64,000 bases of DNA from Faecalibacterium langellae (GTDB lineage Bacteria; Bacillota; Clostridia; Oscillospirales; Ruminococcaceae): positions 1-64,000 of the forward strand of contig NZ_NMTR01000019.1 in the NCBI RefSeq assembly GCF_002549775.1. Reading direction: 5' to 3'. The position numbers and the translations under genes were made by a program. Under the pieces are notes generated by a model that was not told the origin of the DNA, made no database searches, and saw only the letters and a list, made by a program, of their open reading frames with translations. This document shows positions 36,899 to 54,819 of the stretch, piece after piece. Within the stretch, counting starts at the first letter, position 1. Each line of letters begins with the position of its first letter.

Positions 36899-36922
36899 GG
36901 CGGTTCCTTTCACATCGGGGCG

Positions 36923-39640: not shown

Positions 39641-39862
39641 ATGACGCTGACCGACCGACAGTACGCGCTGCTGCAGCGGCTGAGCAGAATGCCGGACACC
39701 GCCCTTTCTGCACTCAGTCAGGAAATGGACCTTGCCCCGCAGACCCTCCGGCAGGATGTGAATGCGCTGATGCCGCTGTTCCTGCTCTGCATTGCCGTCG
39801 GCACTGCGGTGGCCGCAGCCCTGATCCTGTTCTTCCGCAAGAAGACCCACAAAGTTCACTAA
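39641..39862 (+). CDS. small HTH-plus-TM protein, possible deletion chimera
   Basis: 73 residues. Residues 1-47 look like the first helix-turn-helix of a BglG/PRD-type or HTH_11 regulator (LTDRQYALLQRLSRM, LSQEMDLAPQTLRQDVNAL). Residues ~48-66 form one TM helix and the end is RKKTHKVH, like the C-terminus of a PTS or transporter permease. The joint near LMPLF may mark an in-frame deletion that fused two genes. SD AAGGGGG lies upstream of ATG 39641. It sits 15 bp before manA. Confidence 0.5.
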   Translation: MTLTDRQYALLQRLSRMPDTALSALSQEMDLAPQTLRQDVNALMPLFLLCIAVGTAVAAALILFFRKKTHKVH

Positions 39863-39877
39863 GGAGGCTCCCTTACC

Positions 39878-40818
39878 ATGGCACAGTTCATTCGGTTGAA
39901 ACCGGTTTTCAAAGAGACGATCTGGGGCGGTTCCGCTCTTGCGCAGCGGGGGTTTGATATCCCCGGCGACCACACGGGCGAAGCCTGGGTCACCAGCGCC
40001 CACCCCAACGGCGACTGCGAGATCGCCGCAGGGGAATATCAGGGCAAGACCCTGAGCTGGCTGTGGAACGAGCATCAGGAACTGTTCGGCAGCATCGGCG
40101 GCGACCGTTTTCCGCTGCTGGTCAAGGTGATCCACGCAAAGCAGGACCTGAGCATTCAGGTGCACCCGGACAACCGCTATGCCCGTCGCCACGAAAACGG
40201 CAGCCTGGGCAAGGCTGAGTGCTGGTACATTCTGGACTGCGAGCCGGGGGTCGACATCATCGTGGGCCACTCGGCCAGCAGTGACGAGGCCCTGTGCGAG
40301 GAGATCGACCACGGCGAGTGGAACAAGCTGCTGCACCCGCGCCCCATCCACCCCGGCGATTTCTTCTACATCGCCCCGGGCACGGTGCACGCCATCCGCG
40401 CAGGCACCGTCCTGCTGGAGGTCCAGCAGAGCAGCGATATCACACCTACCGCCTGTACGACTACGACCGCCTGCAGAACGGCAAACCCCGTGCCCTGCAT
40501 ATCCAGCAGAGCAAGGACGTGATCCAGAGCCCCTACGAGGCCCCGACCCTGACCCAGAAGTCCCGCTGCACACCAGACTACGACTGGGAAGAACTGGTCC
40601 GCAGCCCCTACTTCACCCTCTCCCACGTCCGGGTGTATGACCACTACGAGTTCTGGATGGATGAGCCTTTTGCCATCGTGAACGTCCTGTCCGGCAGCGG
40701 CACCATCAACGGCGAGCCCATCCGGCAGGGCGAGAGCCTGATCCTTCCCTTCGGCACCGGCAAGGTCTCGGTGGAAGGCACGGTGGAGATCGCGATCTCC
40801 TCGCTGACGATCTCCTGA
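39878..40818 (+). pseudogene. manA: class I mannose-6-phosphate isomerase, frameshifted
   Basis: Interconverts mannose-6-P and fructose-6-P. The first part reads to VLLEVQQSSDIT, with Zn-site blocks HAKQDLSIQVHPDN and GKAECWYILD. The remainder continues in another frame from YRLYDYDRLQNGKPR to the end. At 40441-40446 the sequence CACACC has two bases more than CACC, which would keep the family's D-x-T-Y-R frame. The product would be cut after ~205 of ~312 residues. SD GGAGG lies before ATG 39878. A ManA step fits a mannan locus. Confidence 0.78.
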
Positions 40819-40860
40819 ACGGCCTGAACGATTTGAACTGCTATCTTCCCCATTCAATAA

Positions 40861-40895
40861 ACCGGCCCTTCACAGTGGTGAAGGGCCGGTTTTCG
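40861..40895 (+). terminator. intrinsic terminator after manA
   Basis: ACCGGCCCTTCAC / GTGAAGGGCCGGT perfect 13-bp stem, then TTTT. Confidence 0.92.
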
Positions 40896-41056
40896 TTTAC
40901 GGAGGAAGCGGCATGCCCCGCAATGCCCTTACCGATGTACCGTTTCCCTTAAAATATGCCATGATTTAAGGGAAAGGCAGGCAGACCAAGGGCTTTTGAT
41001 CGGGCAGAACGGAAAAAACGCAGAAGACAGAAAAATGGAATTATCATAGAAAGCTC

Positions 41057-41085
41057 TTGCACAACTACTCCCATGGGAGTATAAT
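41057..41085 (+). promoter_or_regulatory. promoter with 14-bp perfect palindrome in the spacer
   Basis: TTGCAC (41057-41062), 17 bp, TATAAT (41080-41085). The perfect palindrome ACTCCCATGGGAGT (41067-41080) fills the spacer up to the -10, a classic autoregulatory operator position for an XRE antitoxin. Confidence 0.75.
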
Positions 41086-41105
41086 CAAAGCAAAGAGGTG
41101 ATTCT

Positions 41106-41783
41106 ATGGAAAAAATAATCTACCACGGTTCGGATCATATTCTTTCAAAGCCAAAGTTCGGCTATGGAAAAACGTACAATGACTATGGTGTTGGCTTTTA
41201 CTGCACCGAAAACCCTAATATGGCCAAAGAGTGGGGCGTTGGCATAGACCACAACGGTTATGCCAACCAGTACAGGATTGAATGCGATGGCCTGACCATT
41301 CTGGATTTAAATGCTCCCGGCTATACGATGCTACACTGGCTGACCATCCTGTTGGAGAACCGCGAATTCGATGCTTCCGCCCCTTTGGCCGCAGAAGCCA
41401 AAGAATACCTTCTGAAAAACTTTCACCTCGACTATAAGTCTGCCGACATCATCATTGGCTATCGGGCAGATGACAGCTATTTTTCCTTTGCATCCGATTT
41501 TATCAACGGTGCGATCTCTTACCGTCAGTTATGCAATGCCATGCGCTTGGGCAAGCTGGGGCAACAGTTCGTATTGAAAAGCAGAGCAGCTTTTGAACGT
41601 CTGGAATTTCTCGGCTATGAGACCGCAGATTCAAAAGAATGGTATAAGAAAAAGGCCTTCCGTGACCAGACAGCCCGCCGCCAGTATTTTGACGTGGAGC
41701 GCAACCGCCGCCAGAGGGGAGACCTTTATATCACCACGATTCTTGATGAGGAGATGAAGCCCGATGATCCACGCTTACGATAA
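41106..41783 (+). CDS. DUF3990 protein, ADP-ribosyltransferase-like
   Basis: 225 residues. The N-terminus YHGSDHILSKPKFGYGKTYN, then DYGVGFYCTENPNMAKEWG, is the DUF3990 (PF13151-like) pattern, which resembles the H-x-T / Y core of ART-fold enzymes. The middle and C-terminus are helical and basic. No signal peptide. It overlaps the next gene by 20 nt. With that XRE-domain partner and a palindromic operator it looks like the toxin half of a type II toxin-antitoxin pair; this role is inferred. Confidence 0.7.
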   Translation: MEKIIYHGSDHILSKPKFGYGKTYNDYGVGFYCTENPNMAKEWGVGIDHNGYANQYRIECDGLTILDLNAPGYTMLHWLTILLENREFDASAPLAAEAKEYLLKNFHLDYKSADIIIGYRADDSYFSFASDFINGAISYRQLCNAMRLGKLGQQFVLKSRAAFERLEFLGYETADSKEWYKKKAFRDQTARRQYFDVERNRRQRGDLYITTILDEEMKPDDPRLR

Positions 41784-42420
41784 AAGCTACCTTGCCGCCG
41801 CGCAGAAAAACCTTGCCCGGATGCTGGATTACCTCGTCAACGATCTGCATCACCCGCTGGAAACCGCGTGGCAGTGGTTTCTGACCAGTGAGTTATCTGC
41901 CCGGTTCGAGCAGGGAGACTGTTCGGTGTTGGTGGGTATGTCCGGTGTGGAGTTTGCCCGCGCTGTACTGGAGCAGGCGGGCGAAGCCGTGCCCATGCAG
42001 CAGCCCTCGTATGCCTACGACCGCAGCCCGGAATACTGGACAGGCTGGGCCCTTGCCTATTACCAGTGGCTGACCGGTCTGCGCTTTGCGGAGATCGAGC
42101 AGGCAGTGCCGATCACGAAGGTGCGGCTGCTGTATACTCCCTACCATGAGATGGATGTGAAGCAGTTTGCGGACAAGATGAACGAGTTGTACCGCGCAGC
42201 AAAACCGGAAACAAATCTGAAAGCCCTGCGTGCCTTGGCAGGTTTGAGCCAATCGGAACTGGCAGAACAGACCGATGTGCCGGTGCGTACCATCCAGCAG
42301 TACGAACAGCGGCAGAAAGATATCAACAAAGCACAGGCGGAAACACTGCTCCGCCTTGCGAGGACGTTGAACTGTAATGTGGAAGATCTGATGGAGAAAG
42401 TGCCCTTTCCAAGGAATTGA
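41764..42420 (+). CDS. XRE-family helix-turn-helix protein (candidate antitoxin)
   Basis: 218 residues. The first ~140 residues form a novel-looking helical domain that may hold the partner protein (DKSYLAAAQKNLARMLDYLVNDL). The last ~65 are a XRE HTH: LKALRALAGLSQSELAEQTDVPVRTIQQYEQRQ-like, ending NVEDLMEKV. The gene begins inside the DUF3990 gene, so the pair is translationally coupled. The order toxin-like first and HTH second is the less common HigBA-like order. It ends just before the lysS-end repeat that marks the mobile element. Confidence 0.75.
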   Translation: MIHAYDKSYLAAAQKNLARMLDYLVNDLHHPLETAWQWFLTSELSARFEQGDCSVLVGMSGVEFARAVLEQAGEAVPMQQPSYAYDRSPEYWTGWALAYYQWLTGLRFAEIEQAVPITKVRLLYTPYHEMDVKQFADKMNELYRAAKPETNLKALRALAGLSQSELAEQTDVPVRTIQQYEQRQKDINKAQAETLLRLARTLNCNVEDLMEKVPFPRN

Positions 42421-42551
42421 CAGCGTCACGCGCTCTTGTTATAATTGAAACAACATCTCCCCCGGGCCTCTGCGCGCAGCGTATGCACACTCGGAGGCGT
42501 TTTGTTTATAAAAGAAGATTTTCCAAACAGTGCCTGGAAAATTGGGCAAAG

Positions 42552-42582
42552 AAAAAATGCCAGACGATGTCTGGCATTTTTT
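42552..42582. terminator. terminator, ancestral lysS terminator
   Basis: AAAAAATGCCAGAC pairs with GTCTGGCATTTTTT. On the minus strand it lies just beyond the leftover lysS end at 42619-42645, so it probably terminated lysS before the element inserted. It also serves the XRE gene on the plus strand. Confidence 0.85.
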
Positions 42583-42618
42583 GTTATCTCATTTGTTATC
42601 TCAGAGGAACAGGAATTT

Positions 42619-42645
42619 ACTGCTCAATCGGCTTCATCGTGGGGA
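42619..42645 (-). repeat. left attachment-site core (27 bp, lysS 3' end copy)
   Basis: The 27 bases are identical to 53310-53336. On the minus strand they read as the last lysS codons (TMKPIEQ) and here end in a TAA. The core therefore derives from the original lysS end and flanks the integrated element. Confidence 0.9.
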
Positions 42646-42767
42646 CAGGTCAAGGAAGGCTCACAAATGGCTTTATTTTCCTTTATAAGCCTATCCATGC
42701 GACTTCCTTTTTCCTGCTCCCGTACATCACCCTACGCAACTCTCCACAACTTACCGGCAATTTGGTG

Positions 42768-42797
42768 TAAAAGTGGTGTAGTGGTTGGTGTAGTAGA
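42768..42797 (+). repeat. GGTGTAG arm-type repeats, left end
   Basis: Three close copies of the TGGTGTA(G/A) motif occur at about 42768-42797, next to the integrase gene. The same motif recurs in both orientations near the right end (53141-53256). These look like arm-binding sites of the tyrosine integrase. Confidence 0.65.
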
Positions 42798-42799
42798 TT

Positions 42800-44032
42800 T
42801 CAGACCGAAATGCCCAATTTGCCGTTCAGATTTGCAAAGGAATGGGCTTTGGCTTCCTTGGTGGCTTCCGCGTAAATCTCCATCGTGGTGCTGATGTCCC
42901 GGTGTCCCATGATGTCCTGAATGATCTTCAGGTTGGTTTCATTTTCACACAGCCGGGTGCAGAACGTGTGCCGGAGATTATGGCAGGAGAAAGGCGGCAG
43001 CAGCTGCGGCTCTCGTTTTTCCTTTTCGGCCTTTTCCAGTTCGGCTTCGTTGTATGCCACGCTGATGCGCTTGATGGCGCGGTTGACCGTCTGCGGGTTC
43101 TGCAGCTGGCCGAAGCGGTTCAGGAATACGAAGTCCGAGATTCCGTCGATTTCGTATTCGCATACCAGTTCCAGCTCCTGCTGGTTGGTGCGCTCCTGCT
43201 CCAGTGCCTTCCGCACTTCGGGCAAGATCGGAATTGTCCGCTTACCGGCGGCAGTCTTGGGGGTGGACATGGTGAAATAGCAGCCGCCCACCTCGTGGTC
43301 ATGGTACACCAGATTGTGCTGGATGGTGATAAACCCACTCTCGAAGTCGATGTCACCCCAGCACAGGCCAACCGTTTCCGAGATGCGGCATCCGGTACCC
43401 AGCATGAAGGTGAACATCGGGAGCCAGTGCTGGAACTTCGGCGTTTTCTTGATGAAGTTCAGGAACGCCTGCTGCTGGGGCAGTGTCAGAGCGTGACGTT
43501 TGGGCGTTTCGTACTGGTGAGCGGCTTTAATGGCCGTCAGGACACCATCCGTGGGATTCACACGGATGTACTCATCGTCCACCGCCACCGCAAAGACCTG
43601 ATGGAGAACATTCTGGATGGTTTCCAGCGTGTTCAATGCCATCTTGCCGTTGCGGACGATGCCATTGTAGTAGCTGCGGATATCCGACTTGCGAATGTCC
43701 TTGAGCTTCATCATGCCGATCTCATCCCGAACGAACCGATTGTACATATAAACGTAGTTGGCGAAGGTATGCTCTTTCAAGCCCACCTTGTTCTTACGCC
43801 ACAGTTCAAACAGGTCATTCAGGGTCAGGCTGCACTCCGGGATGCGGAGGCCATCTGCCAAGTCGTGCTGGATCTTCTCTTCCTTTTCGCGCAGCCCCTC
43901 CAAGGTTGCATCATAGATGGTATGGCGTTTTCCGTTTTTCGCAGTCCAACGGTACATATACAGCCCGTCACTTTTGCGATAAACCTCGCCATCCTTCAAA
44001 ACACGGCCTTTATTGTCTTTACGTCTTTGCAT
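42800..44032 (-). CDS. int: tyrosine site-specific integrase
   Basis: 410 residues, Tn916/phage-type integrase: an N-terminal AP2-like arm-binding region, SAM-like core-binding domain (~60-160), then the catalytic domain. R-H-R-H-Y residues are visible in GTGCRISETVGLCW, HNLRHTFCTRL and MGHRDISTTMEIYAEAT. I chose ATG 44032 (MQRRKDNKG) with AAAAGGAG 7 nt upstream over the ATG at 44050, whose SD would be poor. The gene runs toward the attachment site at 42619, the usual layout, and should catalyse integration into the end of lysS. Confidence 0.93.
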   Translation of the reverse strand: MQRRKDNKGRVLKDGEVYRKSDGLYMYRWTAKNGKRHTIYDATLEGLREKEEKIQHDLADGLRIPECSLTLNDLFELWRKNKVGLKEHTFANYVYMYNRFVRDEIGMMKLKDIRKSDIRSYYNGIVRNGKMALNTLETIQNVLHQVFAVAVDDEYIRVNPTDGVLTAIKAAHQYETPKRHALTLPQQQAFLNFIKKTPKFQHWLPMFTFMLGTGCRISETVGLCWGDIDFESGFITIQHNLVYHDHEVGGCYFTMSTPKTAAGKRTIPILPEVRKALEQERTNQQELELVCEYEIDGISDFVFLNRFGQLQNPQTVNRAIKRISVAYNEAELEKAEKEKREPQLLPPFSCHNLRHTFCTRLCENETNLKIIQDIMGHRDISTTMEIYAEATKEAKAHSFANLNGKLGISV

Positions 44033-44139
44033 ATAAACTCTCCTTTTCATTCACAGAATGTTGAAAAGGAGCCTTACGCCATGAGTATACCATGACGCAA
44101 GACTCCCTGCAACATCAAACGGTCAATTTTTGAACCGCA

Positions 44140-44427
44140 TCAGATCGAGAATGCCTTGTCCAGATATTCGTCCAGCTTACGGCGTTTGATCAGCCGTTTG
44201 GTTCCGTTCCAAAGAACGAACTTGCATTCATCGCTATCGGTCATTGACCGCAGTTTATTGATACCGATCCCAGAGTAAGCCGCTGCTTCCTCCAAGGTCA
44301 GATTACTCTTTTGCCAAATCGGAACTTGTCGGGACTTAGTCCCTCCATCTTGCTGACGCAAGACCGTTCCGTTGCTTAAAGTCCCCACTGGGGACTTCAT
44401 TGCTTCGCAAACGCAAACTTCTTTCAC
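44140..44427 (-). CDS. xis: excisionase-like small DNA-binding protein
   Basis: The C-terminal ~65 residues (VPIWQKSNLTLEEAAAYSG, GINKLRSM, LWNGTKRLIKRRKLDEYL) match the Tn916 Xis-type winged helix that directs excision. The start is uncertain. GTG 44427 has GGAGG 5 nt upstream and gives 95 residues; ATG 44400 is the alternative. The N-terminal ~28 residues are encoded by the structured repeat at 44324-44413 and are not part of the Xis family. It lies just upstream of int in the same direction. Confidence 0.7.
   Translation of the reverse strand: MKEVCVCEAMKSPVGTLSNGTVLRQQDGGTKSRQVPIWQKSNLTLEEAAAYSGIGINKLRSMTDSDECKFVLWNGTKRLIKRRKLDEYLDKAFSI
44324..44413. repeat. structured repeat, copy 1
   Basis: About 90 bp with three successive hairpins: GGGAC-TTA-GTCCC, CTTGC..GCAAG and AAGTCCCC-ACT-GGGGACTT. 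The same order recurs at 48057-48155 with compensatory changes in the stems. It overlaps the N-terminal codons of the Xis-like gene. Confidence 0.8.
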
Positions 44428-44504
44428 TTGCACCTCCACTTCCTTGTAACCGGGTGTCGGGGCAGAAAGTGCCAGCTTTCTGCCCCAAACGTTCCCGATG
44501 AGGT

Positions 44505-45731
44505 TCAGATTTCCGAGTGCCCCTCCTGTGTGCGGGGTTGTGCCGCTGGTTTGTTTTGCGCCTGTTCTGCCTGCAAGCGGCTCAGCAGTTGCAGAACAGA
44601 ATCCCGTGCTTTCTCCTTGACCTGTTCCTTGCCTTTCTGCCGGACTTCTGGCTTCAGCAGCTTCTCCTGCAAGCGGGTAGCGGTGGATTGCATGGTCTTG
44701 AGGAACTTGTCCAGCACGGTGTCCAAACGGTGCGCTGCATACTCTCTTGTAGTCTGCGGAGCCTTGCGCTCCGGGGACAGCACCCACTTCTTCGTGTCCT
44801 CGATTATCCGCATATCTTCTTTCCGGGTCTCGGTGCGCACCACATCGGTCACGACCTCCACCGCCTTGTCGTAGGCTGCTGCCGAAACATCTTCCAGCAG
44901 GGTCTCCATATCCGAAACTTTCAGGGTCAGTTCGTCCAGCTTGCTCTGCTGGGCGGCAAGCTGCTCCTTCTGCTTGGCAAGGATGAAGTCCTGCTTTTCC
45001 AGATACTTGCGGTTGCCGTATTCTGCTTCTTCCTCCAAATCCAACCCATGACGTTTTGCAACCTCAAACAGCATCTTCCGGCAGGCGGCATCAAAGGTGA
45101 TCTTGCGGTTGTTGCGGCGGCTGAGGGGCATGTCCGGGTCAGGCAGGTCGAAGCCCAGTGTTTCCAATGCCTTTTCCTGCTGGGGAGCAACCTCGCCGTA
45201 CTTGTTCTCACAGTCGAACACATGGCGCTCGTGGATGTGGGGTGTGCTTTCGTCCAGATGCAACGCCCAATCCAGAACGTGAACATGATTGCCAAACTTT
45301 GCTTTGAACTCCTCGATGAACTCGGTGACGATGTTTAGCAAGTCCTCTGCCGAAGCGTGTTCATCCAGCGTTCCAAGCTGGTAGATAGTTTCTTCCGGGC
45401 AGGTCTTGCGGCTGGACAGCAGGTCGGGAATGGAGCGGTTGCGCTCCGTGTGCCGAATCTTGGCGTTGCGCTCGTTCTGGCTTTCCACAAAAGCCGTGTA
45501 GTGGGTTTCGTAGAATTGATGTTCCACATCTGAGAAGGTTGTCGCCAGATCATCCGGGTCTTGTGGGTCAAGAGCCGAACGGAAACCGTGGAAGCAGTCC
45601 CAGTAGATGTTGCCCTTGGCTCGTTCCGGGTCGATGTGCTCACTGTTGGCAAGGTTGAAACTGCGGTCATTGTGCTTGGGGTTGTAAGTGCCGTGTGCTC
45701 CGGCTCGTCCGTTGTGTCGTGTCAGCTTCAG
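44505..45731 (-). CDS. MobV-type relaxase (plasmid mobilisation/recombination protein)
   Basis: About 408 residues. The conserved N-terminus KLTRHNGRAGAHGTYNPKHN and the relaxase metal motif WALHLDESTPHIHERHVF identify a Mob/Pre (MobV) nicking enzyme that starts conjugative transfer of the element at oriT. The C-terminal half is coiled coil (LAKQKEQLAAQQSKLDELTLKV). No ATG fits. The codon at the right distance (9 nt) from GGAGG is CTG 45731, just before KLTRHNG, so the start is either non-standard or has mutated; an upstream in-frame TTG is at 45752. Confidence 0.78.
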   Translation of the reverse strand: MKLTRHNGRAGAHGTYNPKHNDRSFNLANSEHIDPERAKGNIYWDCFHGFRSALDPQDPDDLATTFSDVEHQFYETHYTAFVESQNERNAKIRHTERNRSIPDLLSSRKTCPEETIYQLGTLDEHASAEDLLNIVTEFIEEFKAKFGNHVHVLDWALHLDESTPHIHERHVFDCENKYGEVAPQQEKALETLGFDLPDPDMPLSRRNNRKITFDAACRKMLFEVAKRHGLDLEEEAEYGNRKYLEKQDFILAKQKEQLAAQQSKLDELTLKVSDMETLLEDVSAAAYDKAVEVVTDVVRTETRKEDMRIIEDTKKWVLSPERKAPQTTREYAAHRLDTVLDKFLKTMQSTATRLQEKLLKPEVRQKGKEQVKEKARDSVLQLLSRLQAEQAQNKPAAQPRTQEGHSEI

Positions 45732-46363
45732 ATAGACATCCCTCCGTTTCAACAGCTTGGCGGGGAGAACGCAGCAGCGAAGCTGCTGGATCTGCCGCCG
45801 TTTTGCGCCAGATAATACCCAGTAGGATATGACGCATAGCATCATATCACTGGGCAAGGCGTTCCCCCTTGACCCTTGCAAAGAGCTGGTCTCGCCTGTC
45901 GGCTCGGTCGGTGCTTCAAAAGGCCGGTGGCCTTTTGAGGTCGCCACTGGCGACCCGCACCCCTCTGCACTCTTGCTCCGGGCAAGCTGACAGGCAAAGA
46001 TTTGCGAATCCCTGCCCGCCAGCTCGTCCGGCTTTTTCAGTGGGCCATTTTGACCCACTGATTTTGCCTGTTCCCAAAATAGTAACAGGCAGATAGACGG
46101 TCTGATAACGGCCATCTTGCCCAGATTCCCATTTTGGGAATTTGGGTGGAAGCTGATAAGTGCCGCTTTCCGGCACTTATCACTATTGGCAAACTGTCAA
46201 CCTGGCGCTTTGCCAATACCCCCTATATGGTGCGTATTCGGTCAATCGCTGCGTACGTGCGTACAGAGAAAGGGCATCCGCCGCGTACGCACGTACGCAG
46301 CAAAACGCCCATATTCTCCTTTATGGGGGGTCATGTCCGCCAGCTATTGGGGGTGAGGTCGGG
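45732..46363. other. hairpin-rich region between mob and rep, candidate oriT/origin
   Basis: No gene is seen. Perfect or near-perfect inverted repeats: CAAAAGGCC/GGCCTTTTG (45917-45937), GGTCGCC/GGCGACC (45939-45955), CAGTGGG/CCCACTG (46039-46061), TTCCC/GGGAA (46126-46140), GATAAGTGCCG/CGGCACTTATC (46155-46181), TTGGCAAA/TTTGCCAA (46186-46216) and a 17-bp arm pair at 46248-46264 / 46285-46301. The position upstream of the relaxase gene suits oriT and a replication origin. Confidence 0.55.
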
Positions 46364-47650
46364 CTACACAAGGGCTTCGATGCCCACAAAGCCCCGGACA
46401 CGCCGCCCGGACGAGTTGACAATGTTGTTGGTGGATTCCAGCTTATACCTGCGCTGGTTGGCGATCAGCACATCGCTGAACCCTCGTGCCTTGATCGCAT
46501 TCAAGCTGTTCTCCTCGCACCACATCTTGTAGACCTCATACAGCTCTTTCGAGCTGGTACAGGAATCTGCCTTCAGGCGGATGTAGCCCTCGGATTCGAG
46601 GAAATCGAACACATTGTTGTTATCCCGCTTCACCAGTTCCCGGTTGCGCTTGGCACGGTCACTCTCGGTGAACTGAAAGCCGTTATTCACCAGCCGCTGC
46701 AAGCCCTCAAATGCCCACAGCAGGATGCCCTCGACCTCTGCCGCCATCTTCTCTGCAATGTCCGGGTCATCCACACGGGACAGGGGCTTGTCCTTGGTGG
46801 TCAGGATGAGCTGACGGCGGTAGAAACCGTCCGAGCGGTCATACAGAGCCTGCAAGTCACCGTTGCTGAACGCCAGCAGGCGGGCGTACATCCAGCCCTG
46901 ATAGCTCTGCTTGCCCTTGCGCTCCAAATCCATCTGCCCCTGTGCGGTCACGATGGACTTGACATAGTTGGTCTGGCGCAGGGCTTCCATCCGCATATCA
47001 TCGTCCACACAGAGCAGGGTGTGTTCGAGGTCGGCACGGGCAAAGCGGTTCTCCGAGATCTTGCCGATGCTGCCATCCTTCATGTTGCAGCCGAACAGCC
47101 GGGACAGCACCACACCGATCTGCGACTTTCCCTCGCCGCCGTTGCCCTTGATGACCATCATGCGCTGTCCCTTGTTGCTGGGGATCAGGCAGTAGCCAAT
47201 AAACCCCTGCACGGTGGGGATATCCTCCGGGTAGAGCAGGTTGGACAGGAACCGCAGCCAATGGACAGGCTGTGGGGCTTTCGGGTCATATTTGACCGGG
47301 AGCCGGTTGCGGACGATCTCCGGCTTGCCCTCCTGAAAGGTACCGCCCAGATACAGGGTGCCGTTTGCCAGCGCAATGCGGTCGGTGACAGGTGGAAAGT
47401 CCTCTACCTGTGCCGCCAGTTTCAGCACGTCCACCACATTGGTGACCTTCTTGGCAAGGTTCGCCCCGACGTATTCACGCATCATCTCGAAGATCTCGCA
47501 GCGCAGGGGCATGGGGTCCACCATTCTGCCGTCCGGGGTGAAAAATGCGCCATTCGAGTAAAGCAGCTGGTGGGTGCTCAGAAAATCGTCACAAAACAGG
47601 GATTCGTTGAAAAAGCCTTTCTTGAACCATGCAGGGGTAAAATTACTCAT
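46364..47650 (-). CDS. D5/P4-type primase-helicase (plasmid/phage replication protein)
   Basis: 428 residues of a superfamily 3 helicase: Walker A GNGGEGKSQIGVV, Walker B HTLLCVDDD, sensor region LLAFSNGDLQALYDRSDGFYRR and a C-terminal DUF5906/primase-C winged helix. The N-terminal primase polymerase domain is absent, so this is the helicase half, or it pairs with an unrecognised partner. Start: ATG 47650 or 47656 (six bases apart); AAAGGA lies upstream of both. It probably drives autonomous replication of the excised element. Confidence 0.83.
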   Translation of the reverse strand: MSNFTPAWFKKGFFNESLFCDDFLSTHQLLYSNGAFFTPDGRMVDPMPLRCEIFEMMREYVGANLAKKVTNVVDVLKLAAQVEDFPPVTDRIALANGTLYLGGTFQEGKPEIVRNRLPVKYDPKAPQPVHWLRFLSNLLYPEDIPTVQGFIGYCLIPSNKGQRMMVIKGNGGEGKSQIGVVLSRLFGCNMKDGSIGKISENRFARADLEHTLLCVDDDMRMEALRQTNYVKSIVTAQGQMDLERKGKQSYQGWMYARLLAFSNGDLQALYDRSDGFYRRQLILTTKDKPLSRVDDPDIAEKMAAEVEGILLWAFEGLQRLVNNGFQFTESDRAKRNRELVKRDNNNVFDFLESEGYIRLKADSCTSSKELYEVYKMWCEENSLNAIKARGFSDVLIANQRRYKLESTNNIVNSSGRRVRGFVGIEALV

Positions 47651-47681
47651 AGGCATTCCGTCCTTTCTTGGCGTTACGGAG

Positions 47682-47712
47682 AAACGATGTGATCATTTTG
47701 ATCACATCGTTT
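47682..47712. promoter_or_regulatory. 14-bp perfect inverted repeat upstream of rep
   Basis: AAACGATGTGATCA-TTT-TGATCACATCGTTT, centred about 47 bp upstream of the rep start. It could be an operator or attenuator hairpin for the replication gene, or an origin element. Confidence 0.6.
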
Positions 47713-48056
47713 TACTCCGCAACTGGGAAATCAACGTCCTGCCGTTCTCCCTGCATGGCTTTCCTGCCCCCCTTCCGGCGGTGTTTTCCGGCTCTCCCAC
47801 TTGGGGGTCATCGCCGGGTATCCCATGCAGATGGTCATGCGGTTTTCAAGGTGCAACGGGCAAAACGGCAACAAAAAAGCCGTTACAAAACAGACCAGCC
47901 CTGCCTTCGCTTTTTTCTGGAAGGTCATGCTAGTCGGTTATGTAACGGCTGAAAGCCAAAATGTTCATCCCCACAGGGTCTGAACGAATATGTAAAAATA
48001 TGTTATATTCAATTGTTGGGATAGATTACCACAAAAATCGAGCCGTGTCAACGTGA
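47713..48056. other. intergenic region, no confident gene
   Basis: A short minus-strand frame (47731-47928) lacks an SD and a recognisable domain. The rest is AT-rich toward 48000. I see no clear gene. Confidence 0.4.
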
Positions 48057-48155
48057 ACTTGTCGGGGCAAGGCCCCTCCATCTTGCTGCGCAAGACCGTT
48101 CTGTCGCTTAAAAGCCCCACTGGGGCTTTCATTGCTCCGCTGCGCTGCGCAAACG
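48057..48155. repeat. structured repeat, copy 2
   Basis: Same hairpin order as 44324-44413: GGGGC-AAG-GCCCC, CTTGC-TGC-GCAAG and AAAGCCCC-ACT-GGGGCTTT. Linkers are largely conserved (CTCCATCTTGCTG, AAGACCGTT), while stem bases changed in pairs. Confidence 0.8.
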
Positions 48156-48384
48156 CGCACTTTTGAAAACACGCCACTTTCGGCAGCTTGCAAGAGAAGG
48201 CGAGGAAAACTTTGGCAAAAAGAGAGAGGGCTGGACGGTGCCAGCCCTCTTGACAAGGCAACAACAGCCAAAAAGTTTCATTCCCACCCTCAAACCATCT
48301 TCATCCCGGTTTCGTCCCGGTTTGCAGAATGCCCTTGCAATCCGAAAGGAGCCGTGCTATAATGCCGCTGTAATTGAATCAGAA

Positions 48385-48491
48385 ATCTTCAGGGCAGGGT
48401 GCGATTCCCTACCGGTGGTACAGCCCACGAGCCGTAAGGCATGATTCGGTGAAACTCCGAAGCCGACAGTACAGTCTGGATGAAAGAAGAT
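48385..48491 (+). promoter_or_regulatory. FMN riboswitch (RFN element)
   Basis: Begins ATCTTCAGGGCAGGGTGC and holds ATTCCCTACCGG, GATTCGGTGAAACTCCGAAG, CCGACAGT and CAGTCTGGATG before closing with AGAAGAT: the whole conserved RFN core. An antiterminator/terminator region follows, with the terminator hairpin at 48602-48630. It should shut off the rib operon when FMN is plentiful. Confidence 0.95.
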
Positions 48492-48601
48492 ACCAAGCGC
48501 AGAGCCCGCACGGTTCTGCGCTTGTGGAGGCTGCTCTGGGATGCGTTTGCATTCTGGAGCTTTCTTTTTTGCACAAGGGTCCCTTGTGTCTTTTCGGCTT
48601 G

Positions 48602-48630
48602 CCCTGAACGTTTTTGTTCAGGGCTTTTTC
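48602..48630 (+). terminator. riboswitch-controlled terminator
   Basis: CCCTGAAC / GTTCAGGG stem with T-rich loop, then CTTTTTC, ending a few bases before the ribD SD (GGAGG). Upstream, AAGCGCAGA/TCTGCGCTT (near 48495-48529) is another switchable stem. Confidence 0.8.
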
Positions 48631-48646
48631 TTTTGGAGGCGACACG

Positions 48647-49771
48647 ATGAACGACAAAGAGTATATGCGTCTGGCTTTGCAGCTTGCAAAAAAGGGTTGC
48701 GGATGGACGTCTCCCAACCCGATGGTGGGTGCCGTGGTCGTAAAAGAGGGCAGGATCATCGGACAGGGCTGGCACCAGAGATACGGTCAGGCTCATGCGG
48801 AGCGCAATGCGCTGGCATCCTGCACCGAAGATCCGCAGGGAGCGACCCTGTATGTGACATTGGAACCGTGCTGCCATTACGGAAAGCAGCCGCCCTGCGT
48901 GGATGCGATTCTGGACGCGGGCATTCACCGGGTGGTCGTGGGTTCTGCTGACCCGAATCCGCTGGTGGCTGGAAAAGGAATTGCAATCCTGCGCACACAC
49001 GGCATAGATGTGACCGAAAATGTTCTGCAAGAGGAATGCGATGCGCTGAACAAGGTGTTCTTCCACTATATCACCACAAAACGCCCCTTCGTTTCCATGA
49101 AATACGCCATGACGATGGACGGAAAAATCGCCACATACACAGGCGCTTCCAAATGGATCACCGGGGAAATTGCCCGGAATCATGTTCAACGGCAGCGACA
49201 CCGATTCCGCGGCATTATGGTGGGAGTCGGAACCATCCTAGCAGATGACCCGCTGCTGACCTGCCGGATAGAGGGTGGCCGTGATCCCGTCCGGATCATC
49301 TGTGATACACATTTGCGGACACCGCTGCAATCACAGGTGGTCATGACCGCCAAACAGGTTCCGACCATTCTTGCGACCTGCTGCGGCGACCCGGAGAAGC
49401 AGGCGGCATATCAACAGGCCGGGTGCCGGGTCCTTTGTCTGGAAGCGCATTGCGGTCATGTGAATCTTCTGCAACTGATGGAACAGCTGGGGCAGGAGCA
49501 GATCGACAGCATTCTGCTGGAAGGCGGCGGAACCTTGAACTGGTCTGCACTGGAAAGCGGCATCGTGCAGCAGGTACAGGCTTACATTGCCCCGAAGCTG
49601 TTCGGAGGAAGGGATGCCAAAGCACCCATTGAGGGTGCAGGTGTCCCGCTTCCGGATGCTGCATTCCGCCTGAAGAACAGCCGATTGGAACAGCTTGGCA
49701 AAGATTTCCTGATCGAAAGTGAGGTAGAGTACCCGTGTTTACCGGAATCGTGGAAGAAGTCGGAACAATAA
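48647..49771 (+). CDS. ribD: bifunctional pyrimidine deaminase/reductase RibD
   Basis: Second and third steps of riboflavin synthesis: deaminates, then reduces, the GTP-derived pyrimidine. At 374 residues, the N-terminal Zn deaminase domain has AHAERNAL and TLEPCCHYGKQPPC; the C-terminal reductase domain has FVSMKYAMTMDGKIA, SKWITGE and DSILLEGGGTLNWSAL. ATG 48647 has GGAGG 7-8 nt upstream. Its end overlaps ribE by 37 nt. It is the first gene behind the FMN riboswitch, in the mobile element. Confidence 0.95.
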   Translation: MNDKEYMRLALQLAKKGCGWTSPNPMVGAVVVKEGRIIGQGWHQRYGQAHAERNALASCTEDPQGATLYVTLEPCCHYGKQPPCVDAILDAGIHRVVVGSADPNPLVAGKGIAILRTHGIDVTENVLQEECDALNKVFFHYITTKRPFVSMKYAMTMDGKIATYTGASKWITGEIARNHVQRQRHRFRGIMVGVGTILADDPLLTCRIEGGRDPVRIICDTHLRTPLQSQVVMTAKQVPTILATCCGDPEKQAAYQQAGCRVLCLEAHCGHVNLLQLMEQLGQEQIDSILLEGGGTLNWSALESGIVQQVQAYIAPKLFGGRDAKAPIEGAGVPLPDAAFRLKNSRLEQLGKDFLIESEVEYPCLPESWKKSEQ

Positions 49772-50376
49772 AATCCATCAATCGGGGACAGCATTCCGCC
49801 GTACTGACTGTTCGTGCAAAAACGGTTCTGGAAGGAACCAGGATCGGCGACAGCATCGCCGTCAACGGCATCTGTCTGACCGTCAGGCAGCTCTTCCCGG
49901 ATAGCTTTGCTGCGGATGTCATGCACGAGACCTTGAACCGCTCTGCACTTGCACAGCTCACCATTGGAAGTGCTGTCAATCTGGAACGTGCCATGCCGGC
50001 CAACGGACGTTTTGGCGGACACATCGTAGCAGGCCATGTGGATGGCGTCGGACGCATTGCTAATATCCGAAAAGACGATACGGCTATCTGGTACACCATT
50101 CATGCAGATTCTGCGATCCTTCGCTATGTCGTTGAAAAAGGCTCTATCACAATAGACGGTATCAGCCTGACCGTGGCTGCGGTGGAACCTACGGGCTTTT
50201 CCGTGTCCACGATACCGCACACCGTCCGTCAGACGAACCTGAACCAACGGCACAAAGGGGATTTTGTCAATTTGGAAACCGATGTTGTTGGAAAATATAT
50301 CGAGAGGCTGCTTCCATCAGAAACACCGAAGCAAAACACGCTCACAAAAGAAATGCTGCTGCGCTGCGGCTTTTAA
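49735..50376 (+). CDS. ribE: riboflavin synthase (alpha subunit)
   Basis: Final step: dismutation of two 6,7-dimethyl-8-ribityllumazine molecules to riboflavin. 213 residues made of two similar lumazine-binding barrels. The N-terminus MFTGIVEEVGTI is invariant in the family, with ADVMHETLNRS and GGHIVAGHVDGVG in barrel 1 / linker, and TIDGISLTV in barrel 2. The start is GTG 49735, within ribD, implying coupled translation. Confidence 0.95.
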   Translation: MFTGIVEEVGTIKSINRGQHSAVLTVRAKTVLEGTRIGDSIAVNGICLTVRQLFPDSFAADVMHETLNRSALAQLTIGSAVNLERAMPANGRFGGHIVAGHVDGVGRIANIRKDDTAIWYTIHADSAILRYVVEKGSITIDGISLTVAAVEPTGFSVSTIPHTVRQTNLNQRHKGDFVNLETDVVGKYIERLLPSETPKQNTLTKEMLLRCGF

Positions 50377-50388
50377 GGAGAGTTTACG

Positions 50389-51585
50389 ATGAACTTCAAT
50401 ACCATTCCCGAAGCTTTGCAAGACCTGAAGCAAGGAAAAATCATTCTGGTAACGGATGACCCCGACCGTGAAAACGAGGGGGACTTCATCTGTGCTGCCG
50501 AATTTGCCACCACCGAAAACATCAACTTTATGGCGACCCACGGCAAAGGTCTGATCTGTATGCCGATGTCCGAGGCTTTCGTCCAGAAGCTGCAATTTCC
50601 GCAGATGGTGCAGTATAACACCGACAACCATGAAACGGCATTTACGGTGTCCATCGACCACGTTTCTACTTCTACGGGCATTTCTGCCGCAGAGCGTTCC
50701 ATTACGGCGATGGCTTGTGTGGACGATCACGCAAAAGCAGAAGATTTCCGCAGACCGGGCCATATGTTCCCCCTTCTGGCAAAAAAGAACGGTGTGTTGG
50801 AGCGCAACGGTCACACGGAAGCAACCGTTGACCTGTGCCGTCTGGCAGGGCTGAAAGAATGCGGCCTGTGCTGCGAGATCATGCGGGAGGATGGCACGAT
50901 GATGCGCACCGCTGAACTGGCAAAGCTGGCAGAGCGTTTCCAGATCAAATTCATCACCATCCGTGATTTACAGGAGTACCGCAAGTGTCACGATAAACTG
51001 GTCGATCAGGTGACAGCAGTGAACCTGCCCACCAAGTATGGCACCTTCAGAGCTTATGGTTTTGTGAGCCGCCTGAACGGAGAGCATCACATTGCACTGG
51101 TAAAAGGTGAGATTGGCGATGGAAAGGATATTCTGTGCCGCGTCCACTCGGAATGCCTGACAGGAGATACATTTGGCTCTTTGCGTTGTGACTGCGGCCA
51201 GCAGCTGGCCGCTGCCATGACGCAGATCGAAAAAGAAGACCGGGGTATCCTGCTCTATATGCGGCAGGAAGGCCGGGGCATCGGTCTGATCAACAAACTG
51301 CGTGCCTATGAACTTCAGGAGCAGGGCATGGATACGCTGGAAGCCAATCTCGCTCTGGGGTTCCATGGAGATGAACGGGAGTATTATCTCGGCGCACAGA
51401 TTCTCCGGGAACTTGGCGTAAAAAGCCTGCGCCTGCTTACCAATAACCCGGACAAAGTATATCAGCTCTCCGAGTTTGGGCTGGAGATCTCCGAGCGCGT
51501 ACCCATTCAGATGACGGCGACCCCGTATGACCTGTTTTACCTGAAAACGAAGCAGGCACGGATGGGGCATCTTCTGGAATATTAA
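50389..51585 (+). CDS. ribBA: bifunctional DHBP synthase / GTP cyclohydrolase II
   Basis: Makes both precursors of lumazine. At 398 residues, the N-terminal RibB domain (~1-200) has [14 protein letters not shown] and [11 protein letters not shown]. The C-terminal RibA domain has the Zn-Cys set [20 protein letters not shown] and [24 protein letters not shown] precedes ATG 50389, 12 bp after ribE. Confidence 0.96.
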
Positions 51586-51606
51586 CAACGAAAGAGGTAT
51601 TTAAAA

Positions 51607-52083
51607 ATGAAAACATTTGAAGGTAAGCTGGTTTCTCAGAACATCAAGGTCGGCATCGTAGCTGCCCGCTTCAACGAATTTATCACGTCCAAACTTCTGA
51701 GCGGAGCAATGGATGGTCTGTTCCGGCACGATGTGCAGGACGCTGATATTCATGTTGCATGGGTTCCAGGTGCTTTTGAGATCCCACTGGTTGCCTCTAA
51801 AATGGCAAAAAGCGGAAAGTATGATGCTGTGATCTGCCTTGGTGCCGTGATTCGCGGTTCTACCAGCCATTACGACTATGTGTGCAATGAGGTTTCCAAA
51901 GGCATTGCCACGGTCTCGCTGGAAAGCGGGGTTCCCGTCCTCTTTGGTGTTCTGACCACCGAAAACATCGAACAGGCCATCGAGCGGGCAGGCACCAAAG
52001 CAGGTAATAAAGGCTATGACTGTGCAGTCAGTGCCATCGAGATGGTAAACCTGCTCCGGGAAATGGATACCGCCGCAGAGTAA
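51607..52083 (+). CDS. ribH: 6,7-dimethyl-8-ribityllumazine synthase
   Basis: Condenses DHBP with the ribitylaminouracil. At 158 residues it is the standard size. Active-site blocks are [36 protein letters not shown] and [26 protein letters not shown] lies upstream. It completes a ribD-ribE-ribBA-ribH set in the same order as in Bacillus. Confidence 0.96.
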
Positions 52084-52103
52084 AATACACGCAGGAGTTT
52101 GCC

Positions 52104-52520
52104 ATGATCGTTATAAAGACCCGACAGCCTGACCCGGAATTGGAGCAGAAGATCCGGATGCTTCTGGAACGAGAGCACATCGAGGCAGAGCAAATATCCA
52201 TTGATTCATGGGAGAAGTTGGTTCTTCCGGGGCTTACACTGGACGGAATGACCCACGAAGTGTCGTGCAACGGCAGAAAAGTCTCCCTTACACGACTGGA
52301 GTTCGATTTGCTGCTGATGCTTGCCTCCCACGAAGGACAAATCTTCTCAAAAGAAGAGCTTTTCCGTGCTGTGTGGGGACAAAACTGTGACGACACCTTA
52401 AAGGTCGTGGCAAATACCGTTTCCAATCTGCGAAAGAAGCTGGCCGGCTGCGGCAGCTTTATCCGCACTACCCACGGCGGCTATACTTTTGTAAGCCAAA
52501 AGGAGAACGACCCGGCATGA
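52104..52520 (+). CDS. OmpR/PhoB-type winged-helix protein without receiver domain
   Basis: 138 residues. The first ~45 residues are of unknown type. Residues ~46-132 form a trans_reg_C winged helix: SLTRLEFDLLLMLASHEGQ, FSKEELFRAVWGQ and VVANTVSNLRKKL, then FIRTTHGGYTFV. No phospho-acceptor domain is present, so it is either a truncated response regulator or a stand-alone DNA-binding protein. It lies 20 bp after ribH and overlaps the phosphatase gene by 4 nt, so it is part of the same transcript. It could regulate the cargo or element. Confidence 0.8.
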   Translation: MIVIKTRQPDPELEQKIRMLLEREHIEAEQISIDSWEKLVLPGLTLDGMTHEVSCNGRKVSLTRLEFDLLLMLASHEGQIFSKEELFRAVWGQNCDDTLKVVANTVSNLRKKLAGCGSFIRTTHGGYTFVSQKENDPA

Positions 52521-52966
52521 CCAGAATCTTATTTATTTGTCTCGGAAATATCTGCCGAAGTCCGATGGCGGAGTATGTGATGAAAGACCTTACGTCCAAG
52601 GCCGGACTATCCGAGCAATTTGAAATCGCATCAGCCGCCACCAGTGCATGGGAAATCGGAAATCCGGTCTATCCTCCTGCACGGCAGAAGCTGGCAGAAC
52701 ATGGCATCGACTGCAACGGCAAGACCGCCCGGCAGATGACCCGGCTGGATTATGCACGGTATGATCATCTGATTGGCATGGACGAAAGTAATCTGTGCGA
52801 CATCCTGCGGCTTGTCGGCGGAGACCCACAGCATAAAGTCTCGCTGCTGATGGCGCATACGGATCATCCCCGTGAAGTGGCAGACCCATGGTTCACAGGA
52901 GACTTTGAAGCCACATGGCAGGATGTGCTGGAAGGCTGCACGGCATTGCTTGAGGAACTGCGCTAA
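52517..52966 (+). CDS. low-molecular-weight protein-tyrosine-phosphatase family protein
   Basis: 149 residues. The P-loop CLGNICRSPMAEYVM at the N-terminus has the C-x5-R-S signature, and the general acid Asp is in VADPWFTGDFEATW. It normally dephosphorylates phosphotyrosine, but related enzymes act on small molecules. It overlaps the preceding gene by ATGA and is the last gene of the rib transcript. Riboflavin synthesis needs an unidentified phosphatase in many bacteria, so a link is worth testing; this is only a context inference. Confidence 0.9.
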   Translation: MTRILFICLGNICRSPMAEYVMKDLTSKAGLSEQFEIASAATSAWEIGNPVYPPARQKLAEHGIDCNGKTARQMTRLDYARYDHLIGMDESNLCDILRLVGGDPQHKVSLLMAHTDHPREVADPWFTGDFEATWQDVLEGCTALLEELR

Positions 52967-53085
52967 ATTGGCGTAAATTTTGGCGTATGCTGAATCAAGG
53001 TGCATTTTATAATCACCAGCGACGAGCTGATTTAACCGCATGGAACGCCGATTGGTAGCATAAAATCCTTATATGAAACAAAAAG

Positions 53086-53125
53086 CGGCAGCTACGTTGT
53101 TTTTCGCAACATAGCTGCCGTATCT
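53086..53125 (+). terminator. hairpin ending the rib transcript region
   Basis: CGGCAGCTACGTTG (53086-53099) / CAACATAGCTGCCG (53107-53120) with a T-rich loop, about 120 bp after the phosphatase gene. Confidence 0.6.
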
Positions 53126-53140
53126 TCGTTTTGGGAGTTC

Positions 53141-53256
53141 GGTGTAGCCACTACACCAATCCGCCTATTCAATTCTTACACCACACCGCTTTGTAAGGCT
53201 CCTTTTCGGGAAAACGTCCCAAAATTGGTGTAGTTGTGGTGTAGTACCGCAGATGC
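53141..53256. repeat. GGTGTAG arm-type repeats, right end
   Basis: CGGTGTAGCCACTACACC near 53140-53157 (inverted pair), then ACACCACACC near 53180, and TTGGTGTAG and GTGGTGTAG near 53225-53243. The motif matches that at 42768-42797 beside int. Confidence 0.6.
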
Positions 53257-53307
53257 CGCTTGAAATCCGTTCAAAATTTCATCGTATCTTCGTCTGAATT
53301 TTGCATT

Positions 53308-54819
53308 TCACTGCTCAATCGGCTTCATCGTGGGGAACAGCAGCACGTCACGGATAGAAGCGCTGTCCGTCAGCAGCATGACCAGACGGTCCACGCCGAA
53401 GCCCAGGCCGCCCGTGGGGGGCAGGCCGTACTCCAGAGCGTTGACGTAGTCGTAGTCCACCTGGGCCTTGCAGTCCGGCTCGATGGCCTTGCGCTCGGCC
53501 ACCTGACGCTCGAAGCGGCCCTTCTGGTCAATGGGGTCGTTCAGCTCGCTGAAGGCGTTGCCGTACTCGGTGCAGTCGATGAAATACTCAAAGCGCTCGG
53601 TGAAGGCGGGGTCGTCCGGCTTGCGCTTGGCAAGGGGGCTGATCTCCACGGGGTAGTCGTAGATGAAGGTGGGCTGGATGAGTTTGTCCTCCACGAAGGC
53701 ATCGAAGAACTCGGCCAGGATGGCACCCTTGGTGGGCACCTCGGGCAGCTCCACGTTGTGGGCCTTGGCGGCGGCAATGGCGTCCTCGTCGGTGGCCCAG
53801 TCGTTGAAGTCCACGCCGGAGTACTTCTTCACGGCCTCGATCATGGTCAGGCGCTCCCAGTGGCCCATGTCGATCTGCTTGCCCTGATAGGGGATGACCA
53901 TGCTGCCGCAGATCTTCTGAGCCAGACGCTTGTACAGCTCCTCCACCAGATCCATCATGCCGTGGAAATCGGTGAAGGCCTGATACAGCTCGATGCTGGT
54001 GAACTCCGGGTTGTGCTTGGGGTCCATGCCCTCGTTGCGGAAGATGCGGCCCACTTCATATACGCGGTCCATGCCGCCCACGATCAGGCGCTTGAGGTAC
54101 AGCTCGGTCTCGATGCGCAGCACCATGTCCATGTTCAGGCTGTTGTGATGGGTGTAGAAGGGGCGTGCCGATGCGCCGATCTCGAAGGGGGTCAGGATGG
54201 GGGTGTCCACTTCCAGGAAGCCCTTCTCGTCCAGATAAGCGCGGATCTCCTTCAGGATCTGGCTGCGCTTGACGAAGGTGTCCTTGACCTCCGGGTTTGC
54301 GATCAGGTCCACATAGCGCTGGCGATACCGCATCTCGGTGTCGGTCAGGCCGTGGAACTTCTCGGGCAGGGGGCGCAGGCTCTTGGCCAGCAGCACCAGC
54401 TCGGTGGCGCGGACGCTCAGCTCGCCGGTCTTGGTGCGGAACACCTCGCCCTTCACGCCGATGATATCGCCCACGTCCAGCTTCTTGAAGGCGGCATAAG
54501 CCTCCTCGCCCAGCTCATCGCGGCGGACATACAGCTGGATGTCGCCCTTGTCGTCGCGCAGGTGGGCAAAGCTGGCCTTGCCCATCACGCGCTTGGACAT
54601 CATGCGGCCAGCCAGGGCAACCTGCTTGCCGCTGTCGGTCTCGTTGGGCAGGTCCTTGAATTCTTCCTTCAGGTCGGCCGAGTAGGCGTCCTGCGGGTAC
54701 TTGGTCAGGGTAAAGGGGTCATGACCGGCGGCCTGCAGGTCTGCCAGCTTCTGGCGGCGCACCTGCACCTGCTCGCTCTCGGACAGGCCCTGTGCGGGGT
54801 TTCTCTTTTGTTCTTCCAT
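53308..54819 (-). CDS. lysS: lysyl-tRNA synthetase, class II
   Basis: Charges tRNA-Lys. At 503 residues it has an OB-fold anticodon domain (~55-150), then the class II core with motif 2 IFRNEGMDPKHNPEFTSIE and motif 3 GLGFGVDRLVMLLTDS. The start ATG 54819 lies 23 bp after greA, so the two form an operon. The last codons (TMKPIEQ) and stop lie in the 27-bp core that recurs at 42619. The element inserted here and resupplied an intact end, so the protein is unbroken. Confidence 0.96.
   Translation of the reverse strand: MEEQKRNPAQGLSESEQVQVRRQKLADLQAAGHDPFTLTKYPQDAYSADLKEEFKDLPNETDSGKQVALAGRMMSKRVMGKASFAHLRDDKGDIQLYVRRDELGEEAYAAFKKLDVGDIIGVKGEVFRTKTGELSVRATELVLLAKSLRPLPEKFHGLTDTEMRYRQRYVDLIANPEVKDTFVKRSQILKEIRAYLDEKGFLEVDTPILTPFEIGASARPFYTHHNSLNMDMVLRIETELYLKRLIVGGMDRVYEVGRIFRNEGMDPKHNPEFTSIELYQAFTDFHGMMDLVEELYKRLAQKICGSMVIPYQGKQIDMGHWERLTMIEAVKKYSGVDFNDWATDEDAIAAAKAHNVELPEVPTKGAILAEFFDAFVEDKLIQPTFIYDYPVEISPLAKRKPDDPAFTERFEYFIDCTEYGNAFSELNDPIDQKGRFERQVAERKAIEPDCKAQVDYDYVNALEYGLPPTGGLGFGVDRLVMLLTDSASIRDVLLFPTMKPIEQ
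53310..53336 (-). repeat. right attachment-site core (27 bp) in the lysS 3' end
   Basis: Identical to 42619-42645 and still joined to the lysS coding body. The flanks diverge on both sides of the core (CATTTC against AATTT on one side, AACAGC against CAGGTC on the other), as expected for attR against attL. Confidence 0.9.

Follow-up and report, generated by a model that had tools for sequence, protein, structure and literature searches.

A probable integrative mobilizable element with a riboflavin operon at the lysS gene of Faecalibacterium langellae

Integrative and conjugative elements (ICEs) of Streptococcus are known to integrate in the 3' end of lysS (PMC4701971; for the vanG family PMC7168690), and a survey of gut mobile elements counted vitamin B biosynthesis genes among those enriched on such elements (PMC6907783). 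Strains of Faecalibacterium prausnitzii are among the butyrate producers with the most vitamin auxotrophies (PMC7360928), and in Roseburia the presence or absence of riboflavin genes by species is known (PMC7478625). Here we describe a 10,691-bp element (positions 42619-53336) in a 64-kb stretch of Faecalibacterium langellae DNA (assembly GCF_002549775.1, contig NZ_NMTR01000019.1, positions 1 to 64,000, forward strand). This stretch, called the window below, is part of a 178,524-bp contig in a genome of 2.82 Mb. The element lies between two exact 27-bp copies of the lysS 3' end and carries a riboflavin operon. We think it very likely that it is an integrative mobilizable element (IME) of a Faecalibacterium family that targets lysS with a Tn916-type integrase and has exchangeable cargo, and that it would be excised, mobilized in trans and confer riboflavin prototrophy. 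It was compared with 31 Faecalibacterium genomes, one per species (G handles; G000 is the present genome), 22 of which counted as good assemblies, and with a sample of 297 genomes of the same bacterial family. The coordinates of the features are collected in Table 1.

The two copies of the core, which contain the last lysS codons, are identical over 27 bp, as the first-pass annotation of this DNA had claimed, and with one mismatch the repeat reaches 30 nt (42616-42645 / 53307-53336). The attachment (att) core is the lysS 3' end and lysS is left intact, which is the pattern of lysS-specific integration; the stop codon of the gene is now TGA, and would be TAA with the left core copy restored. 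The boundaries agree with the comparison of related elements. On the integrase side, the elements of G002, G012, G017, G029 and G013:C36 (a contig with a core copy at either end) cease to match at 42614-42616. On the lysS side the homology continues into lysS wherever a related element adjoins the gene; the three copies located away from lysS (G013:C36, at the contig end; G013:C7; the second element of G017) match as far as 53336. An independent contig from human faeces (MT839064.1) spans the left junction with a 98% match to window positions 38801-43408, which argues against an assembly accident there. The heptamer TGGTGTA has 16 copies in the window, 7 of which fall within the two element ends, and these repeats, kept in 4/4 related elements checked, have the pattern expected of arm-type integrase sites. 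The G+C content of the element is 0.52-0.56 (1.5-kb steps) vs 0.54-0.68 for most of the remaining window; the 1.5 kb to the left of the element is likewise low (0.525).

The genes between the repeats are those of a mobilizable element. The integrase combines the N-terminal domain PF02920 with the catalytic domain PF00589 and is accompanied by the Tn916-Xis partner PF09035, which makes the pair Tn916-type; an integrase of its own and defined att sites are also what characterizes an IME. The relaxase was recognized by a chain of homology: its score on PF01076 is below threshold and its distant homologues L317-L319 (28-29% identity) exceed the Mob_Pre cut-off with 51-67 bits, thus we file it only as MobV-like. 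Its AlphaFold2 model has a mean pLDDT of 48, and its N-terminal end, taken from 446-aa homologues, is approximate. No conjugation or mating-pair family was recognized among the ten element proteins scanned, the small ORFs being outside that scan, thus the element would need a helper and is best read as an IME, in which the origin of transfer (oriT) is a candidate only. The att repeats, the gene content and the related elements described below bear out the earlier proposal of a mobilisable-type element with a riboflavin operon at the lysS 3' end.

The candidate oriT is a perfect inverted repeat between the relaxase and primase genes, which has a DNA fold z of -5.4 and is conserved in all five relatives compared, apart from one substitution in G012. 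Judged by eye, the sequence around this repeat (about 30 bp on each side) reads in G002 and G013:C36 in the orientation opposite to that in G000, G012, G017 and G029; it is possible that the segment is invertible, or an origin. A dispersed repeat of about 100 bp occurs twice in the element (44314-44408 and 48050-48157), accounts for 35 of the element's 43 listed matches within its own genome, and is present also in the Faecalibacterium phage FP_Toutatis. Its first copy abuts the 5' end of xis; this copy is found in G012 and absent in G002, thus it looks like a small mobile repeat.

The cargo is a riboflavin operon in which RibD, RibE, RibBA and RibH are all full length and above the NCBIfam cut-offs, and the FMN riboswitch in front of it and the two further genes behind it are present as first described. 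It is encoded on the strand opposite to int, xis, relaxase and primase. The in-frame ATG at 48647, downstream of the hairpin, is the likelier start of ribD, and the right edge of the cassette lies inside the last codons of the phosphatase-family (LMWPc) gene. Having a promoter-like site of its own, a riboswitch and an attenuator-like hairpin, the cassette would be regulated wherever it is inserted.

Full-length RibBA with 97-100% identity was found in 10/31 genomes (10/22 good assemblies), and in an eleventh (G024) there is a partial match of 69% where a contig ends. The cassette block is 94.4-99.8% identical across all ten copies. Four copies lie beside a serine-recombinase fragment, at one locus in G030 and G028 and at another in G009 and G027 (the search for the recombinase domain was confined to G030); in G015 and G014 the cassette is at other places again, accompanied by remnants of IME sequence. 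The G013 copy is in an element of the A type, as we call the lysS-targeting backbone of the present element, with one core copy, the int end gone, on a contig without lysS. The median third-codon identity over the 45 genome pairs was 96.0% for the rib genes, 78.0% for rpoB and 77.1% for lysS, and the rib value was higher than that of rpoB in 44/45 pairs and higher than that of lysS in 45/45. The exceptional pair is that of the near-sisters G027 and G028 (rpoB third positions 98.0%, rib 94.1%), where the larger rib difference together with the different loci suggests that each gained the genes separately. For the rib alignment, the topology of the rpoB tree is rejected (approximately unbiased (AU) test, p = 5.4e-8). 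With this patchy distribution over several loci, the genes of riboflavin synthesis appear to move horizontally in Faecalibacterium, as the first-pass annotation had suggested. The best RibBA outside the genus is 79% identical in the family sample, thus no donor was identified.

It could be argued that the genus inherited the operon from its ancestor and that most species then lost it, with the repeats and the integrase as incidental neighbours: the operon is complete and riboswitch-led, and RibBA was found (E<=1e-150) in 36/297 family genomes. Against such a history speak the excess similarity of the rib genes over rpoB and lysS, the rejected rpoB tree, the several loci, and the near-sisters with diverged rib genes at different places, and we find it extremely improbable. 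A different possibility is that ordinary homologous recombination or DNA uptake accounts for most of the cassette's spread between strains and that the IMEs adjoin it by chance, which would fit near-identical cassettes sharing one block in unrelated contexts. We hold this to be improbable because the A-element and serine-recombinase contexts have no homology past the block edges (BLAST, printed flanks), and because three of the ten copies are in complete A elements at lysS and one more is in a truncated A element. It is also conceivable that the 4,664-bp block is an itinerant vitamin cassette, which a specific process, as opposed to chance recombination, would swap as a fixed-edge unit between unrelated integrative elements (lysS IMEs and serine-recombinase elements), and that the LMWPc phosphatase, present in all ten copies, is devoted to the phosphatase step that the rib operon lacks, so that the cassette would be metabolically complete. 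To this idea we attach little weight. That the LMWPc protein and the regulator are a general part of rib operons was considered and dropped, since neither has a relative (E<=1e-4) in the 18 rib loci of other genera of the family that extend beyond ribH.

The elements that share its backbone speak for the reading as an IME with exchangeable cargo. The integrase occurs at 94-100% identity in 6/31 genomes of the genus, each time with the core 157 bp downstream. An A-type element, or its lysS-side end, was found at the lysS core with rib cargo in G000, G002 and G012. The same slot holds a TetR and a zinc dehydrogenase gene in G029, an AAA protein and a membrane protein in G017, an FecCD permease with its ATPase (ABC) in G003, an ABC ATPase in G009, and arsenic-type genes in G030, the last judged by ORF starts only. 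G013:C36 encodes an ArsR-type regulator, an ArsP_1 permease and an arsenate-reductase-like protein. The arsenic-cargo sister IME in F. prausnitzii ATCC 27768 (L149, NZ_PXUP01000040.1, 1-7801) is on a contig with the att core at both ends, and the coverage in the contig title, 600 vs 348 and 297 for two contigs with matching ends, suggests two (tandem) copies or a circle. The arsenic cargo in this slot (L108:5228-5629) includes a protein of the LMWPc family, as does the end of the rib cassette.

Another element, which we call B-type and which has an integrase with 49% identity and a VapE-type protein, uses the same core. Core copies separate A, B and C elements in tandem, as in the orders lysS-A-B-A in G017 and lysS-B-C-B end in G015. 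Among 30 lysS loci, mapped over the stretches read beside lysS, 12 have the core (<=3 mismatches), followed by an A-type end in 8 and by a B-type-like end in 4; in G013 and G028 lysS diverges inside the core. The B-type element between two cores in G017 and G013 (L085, L109, L291, L101) contains a gene which, from its sequence, we take to be GH32-like, and sugar use may also be mobile at the lysS site. Downstream of lysS in G028, a coupling protein, a MobA/MobL relaxase and ParB are encoded in an ICE-like region, which is a possible helper. In L183 (MT837647.1, human faeces), which has an A-type int end, the second half of the core differs at three positions, as in the lysS of G027; on this basis the crossover would lie within the core's first part. 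The lysS loci L069-L075, from another group of the genus, have longer frames (619-779 aa) and a core that is absent or has 8 mismatches, thus the lysS C-terminus seems to be extended there.

The association of the integrase with lysS is not confined to Faecalibacterium. We looked for a lysS-end-like 14-mer within 400 bp downstream of int in 18 family-level loci, the best 18 of 31 listed matches, and found it in 13/18 at <=3 mismatches and in 11/18 at <=2, where about 1/18 is expected from the window's own density. The motif was present in 12/12 Faecalibacterium integrase loci examined at >=46% identity, a count from which four further listed integrases that had no locus were left out, and in 0/4 distant loci (31-33%). 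In another genus (G142, L298), identical 22-bp core-like repeats stand at lysS and at the int end, 11.9 kb apart, with int and xis between them. Judged from these loci, the integrase clade is lysS-linked beyond Faecalibacterium.

Several observations weigh against the IME reading. The complete rib IME was found in three genomes only (G000, G002, G012); six of the ten genomes carry the cassette away from lysS and a seventh (G013) has it in the truncated A element, thus the original claim holds for the element at lysS while the phenomenon is wider than one element. The relaxase scores 18.2 bits on PF01076, where the gathering cut-off is 25.5, and reaches 4lvi (MobM-type) at E=0.3 only; the int, xis and P4-type primase genes stand as first listed, and the relaxase call is weaker than was stated. 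The lysS-end-like motif is missing at 5/18 family loci. No clean empty site was found among the 30 lysS loci, where the 12 core-bearing ones are followed by an A-type or a B-type-like end, and two of the latter (G008, G014) may be scars or empty sites. The circle-junction (attP) pattern had 0 matches in IMG/VR. Finally, no int was found in the 22-57 kb read in G003, G009, G030 and the second G017 element, thus many copies look dead. The last two points, the G017 relaxase split across two frames, and the dispersed repeat abutting xis would all suit a fixed remnant, i.e. an element transferred in the past whose Int or relaxase is now inactive in this strain. We regard this as unlikely, if deserving some consideration, because the int, xis, relaxase and primase frames are open here, the att copies are identical, and the arsenic sister in ATCC 27768 has a coverage suggestive of two copies or of a circle. 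The rib-promoter pattern, the integrase and RibBA likewise had no matches in IMG/VR, where the relaxase had one relative (L303, 91%). The plasmid collection gave no match; the phage collection gave 9 records, none covering 80% of the query, two of which were int-end pieces with flank.

The surroundings of lysS are variable. Window positions 14.9-26 kb have long matches, in the same order, about 30-39 kb beyond lysS in G002 and G015 (distances by hand), thus lysS seems to be at the same chromosomal place in these genomes and to be followed by a variable stretch; G012 has a short match that agrees, and G030 one of 273 bp in the other orientation. The hairpin at 42552-42582 exists. Its earlier interpretation as the stranded ancestral lysS terminator is not supported, as the left flank of the window was not found beside lysS elsewhere: a search with window 25000-42616 in the lysS-downstream stretches (up to 20 kb each) returned only a 74-bp piece inside another element. 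In the relatives read, lysS or attL is followed by the end of an element or by a sequence resembling such an end. In G008 and G014, where a B-type-like end follows the lysS core, there was no B gene in the 20-40 kb read, and these ends may be scars or empty sites. The view that the AAATTTCC...hairpin sequence, which follows attL in G012, G002 and G017, is host flank (with G008 and G014 empty) is not relied on here, since in G013, G015, G017 and G027 this sequence forms the lysS-side end of B elements bounded by their own integrase and a core. To the left of the element there is a gene pair (41106-42420) encoding an antitoxin-like HTH protein and a 225-aa protein with no NCBIfam hit, presumably DUF3990-like; the pair is found again within a few kb of a lysS-type core in Gemmiger formicilis (L162), and at different places in other Faecalibacterium.

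Sequence comparison thus shows the boundaries, the gene content, the exchange of cargo, the tandem arrays, the patchy distribution and the horizontal spread; for excision, mobilization in trans and growth we envisage the following cycle. The integrase would recombine the 27-bp core of the element with the identical core at the end of lysS, preserving the lysS frame; in the reverse reaction, Int together with Xis would set free a circle, which the relaxase would nick for transfer to a new cell by the conjugation machinery of another element. The slot between the primase and lysS would take exchangeable cargo, here the rib cassette with its promoter-like site and FMN riboswitch. A host apparently reliant on a riboswitch-controlled importer would gain riboflavin prototrophy with the cassette. 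An FMN riboswitch was found in 30/31 genomes, none being shown in G026, and its neighbours were read in the present genome and in G017. The second FMN riboswitch of the present genome precedes a gene for a 199-aa ECF S-component, and a similar ECF S-component-type gene follows the only FMN riboswitch of G017, which has no RibBA match. NCBIfam models name no substrate above cut-off for this protein, thus riboflavin import rests on the riboswitch. It seems plausible that import is ancestral and that synthesis was added by the cassette. Two FMN riboswitches each occur in G001, G006 and G016, though RibBA was not found there, and three each in G024 and G027. If this picture is correct, a gut genus would have riboflavin synthesis as a mobile accessory trait, acquired and exchanged in much the way of resistance genes. 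Vitamin B2 auxotrophy could then not be predicted from the species label, a point of importance for cross-feeding models, and lysS would be a hotspot stacking elements with exchangeable metabolic, metal and other cargo.

Table 1. Features of the element and its target gene in the window
Feature	Position	Strand	Basis
attL, 27-bp core copy, int-proximal	42619..42645	.	exact repeat; int-side homology edge in five related elements
three TGGTGTA repeats, candidate arm-type integrase binding sites, int end	42763..42792	+	7-mer count, conservation
int, Tn916-type tyrosine integrase, 416 aa	42800..44050	-	PF00589, PF02920; PDB 6emy 'Int protein' E=2e-33
xis, Tn916-type excisionase, start codon not settled	44140..44334	-	PF09035 E=1.6e-21
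relaxase, divergent Mob_Pre/MobV-like, HLDESTPHIH motif	44505..45845	-	PF01076 E=0.0024, sub-threshold; homologues
17-bp perfect inverted repeat (46248-46264 / 46285-46301), candidate oriT/replication origin	46248..46301	.	conservation, DNA fold
P4-family primase C-terminal type, 430 aa	46364..47656	-	TIGR01613 above cut-off; DUF5906
riboflavin cassette, 4,664 bp, block common to all ten copies	48299..52962	+	exact edges vs G030, G028, G009, G027
sigma-70-like promoter TTGCAA-17-TATAAT within cassette	48335..48363	+	by eye; same in copies printed
FMN riboswitch aptamer	48381..48495	+	Rfam RF00050, 110.2 bits
hairpin and T-run between riboswitch and ribD, candidate attenuator	48601..48632	+	by eye
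ribD (listed start)	48614..49771	+	TIGR00326
ribE, riboflavin synthase	49735..50376	+	TIGR00187
ribBA	50389..51585	+	NF006803 above cut-off
ribH, lumazine synthase	51607..52083	+	TIGR00114
138-aa winged-helix Trans_reg_C protein, no receiver domain matched	52104..52520	+	PF00486
low-molecular-weight phosphatase family (LMWPc) protein	52517..52966	+	PF01451
four TGGTGTA/TACACCA repeats, candidate arm-type sites, lysS end	53152..53243	.	7-mer count
attR, 27-bp core = last lysS codons	53310..53336	.	exact repeat
lysS, target gene, intact	53308..54819	-	ORF list and sequence

The element can be compared with several known systems. The ribD-ribE-ribBA-ribH order is shared with the rib operons of other genera of the family (18/20 loci read, the remaining two ending before ribH), whose RibBA, in the family genomes sampled, is at most 79% identical to the present one. 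With Tn916-type modules the element has in common the N-terminal domain of Int and the Tn916-Xis family, and its best PDB match, 6emy, is an 'Int protein' which we take to be that of Tn1549; it differs from them in that its Int-Xis pair is linked to lysS and that no Tn916 conjugation gene was recognized in the element. With MobV (Mob_Pre) mobilizable elements and plasmids it shares the HxDExxPHxH motif, which presumably marks the MobV family, a weak PF01076 match and homologues above the cut-off, whereas its relaxase is far from the solved plasmid recombination enzyme 4lvi. The lysS ICEs of Streptococcus also have a tyrosine integrase, the lysS 3' end as target and direct repeats at the gene end; theirs are 13-17 bp long, and they are conjugative and in some cases carry tet(W), riboflavin cargo not being mentioned in the accessible text of the two papers (PMC4701971, PMC7168690). 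The main text of the gut survey has 0 occurrences of riboflavin or lysS (PMC6907783), and our literature searches, which did not cover supplements, returned no description of a riboflavin-carrying IME or of this Faecalibacterium lysS hotspot, in agreement with the first-pass annotation, which knew of no described element of this kind. Thus lysS as an integration target was known from Streptococcus, and what is new, as far as these searches go, is an IME that carries riboflavin genes and the lysS hotspot of Faecalibacterium to which it belongs.

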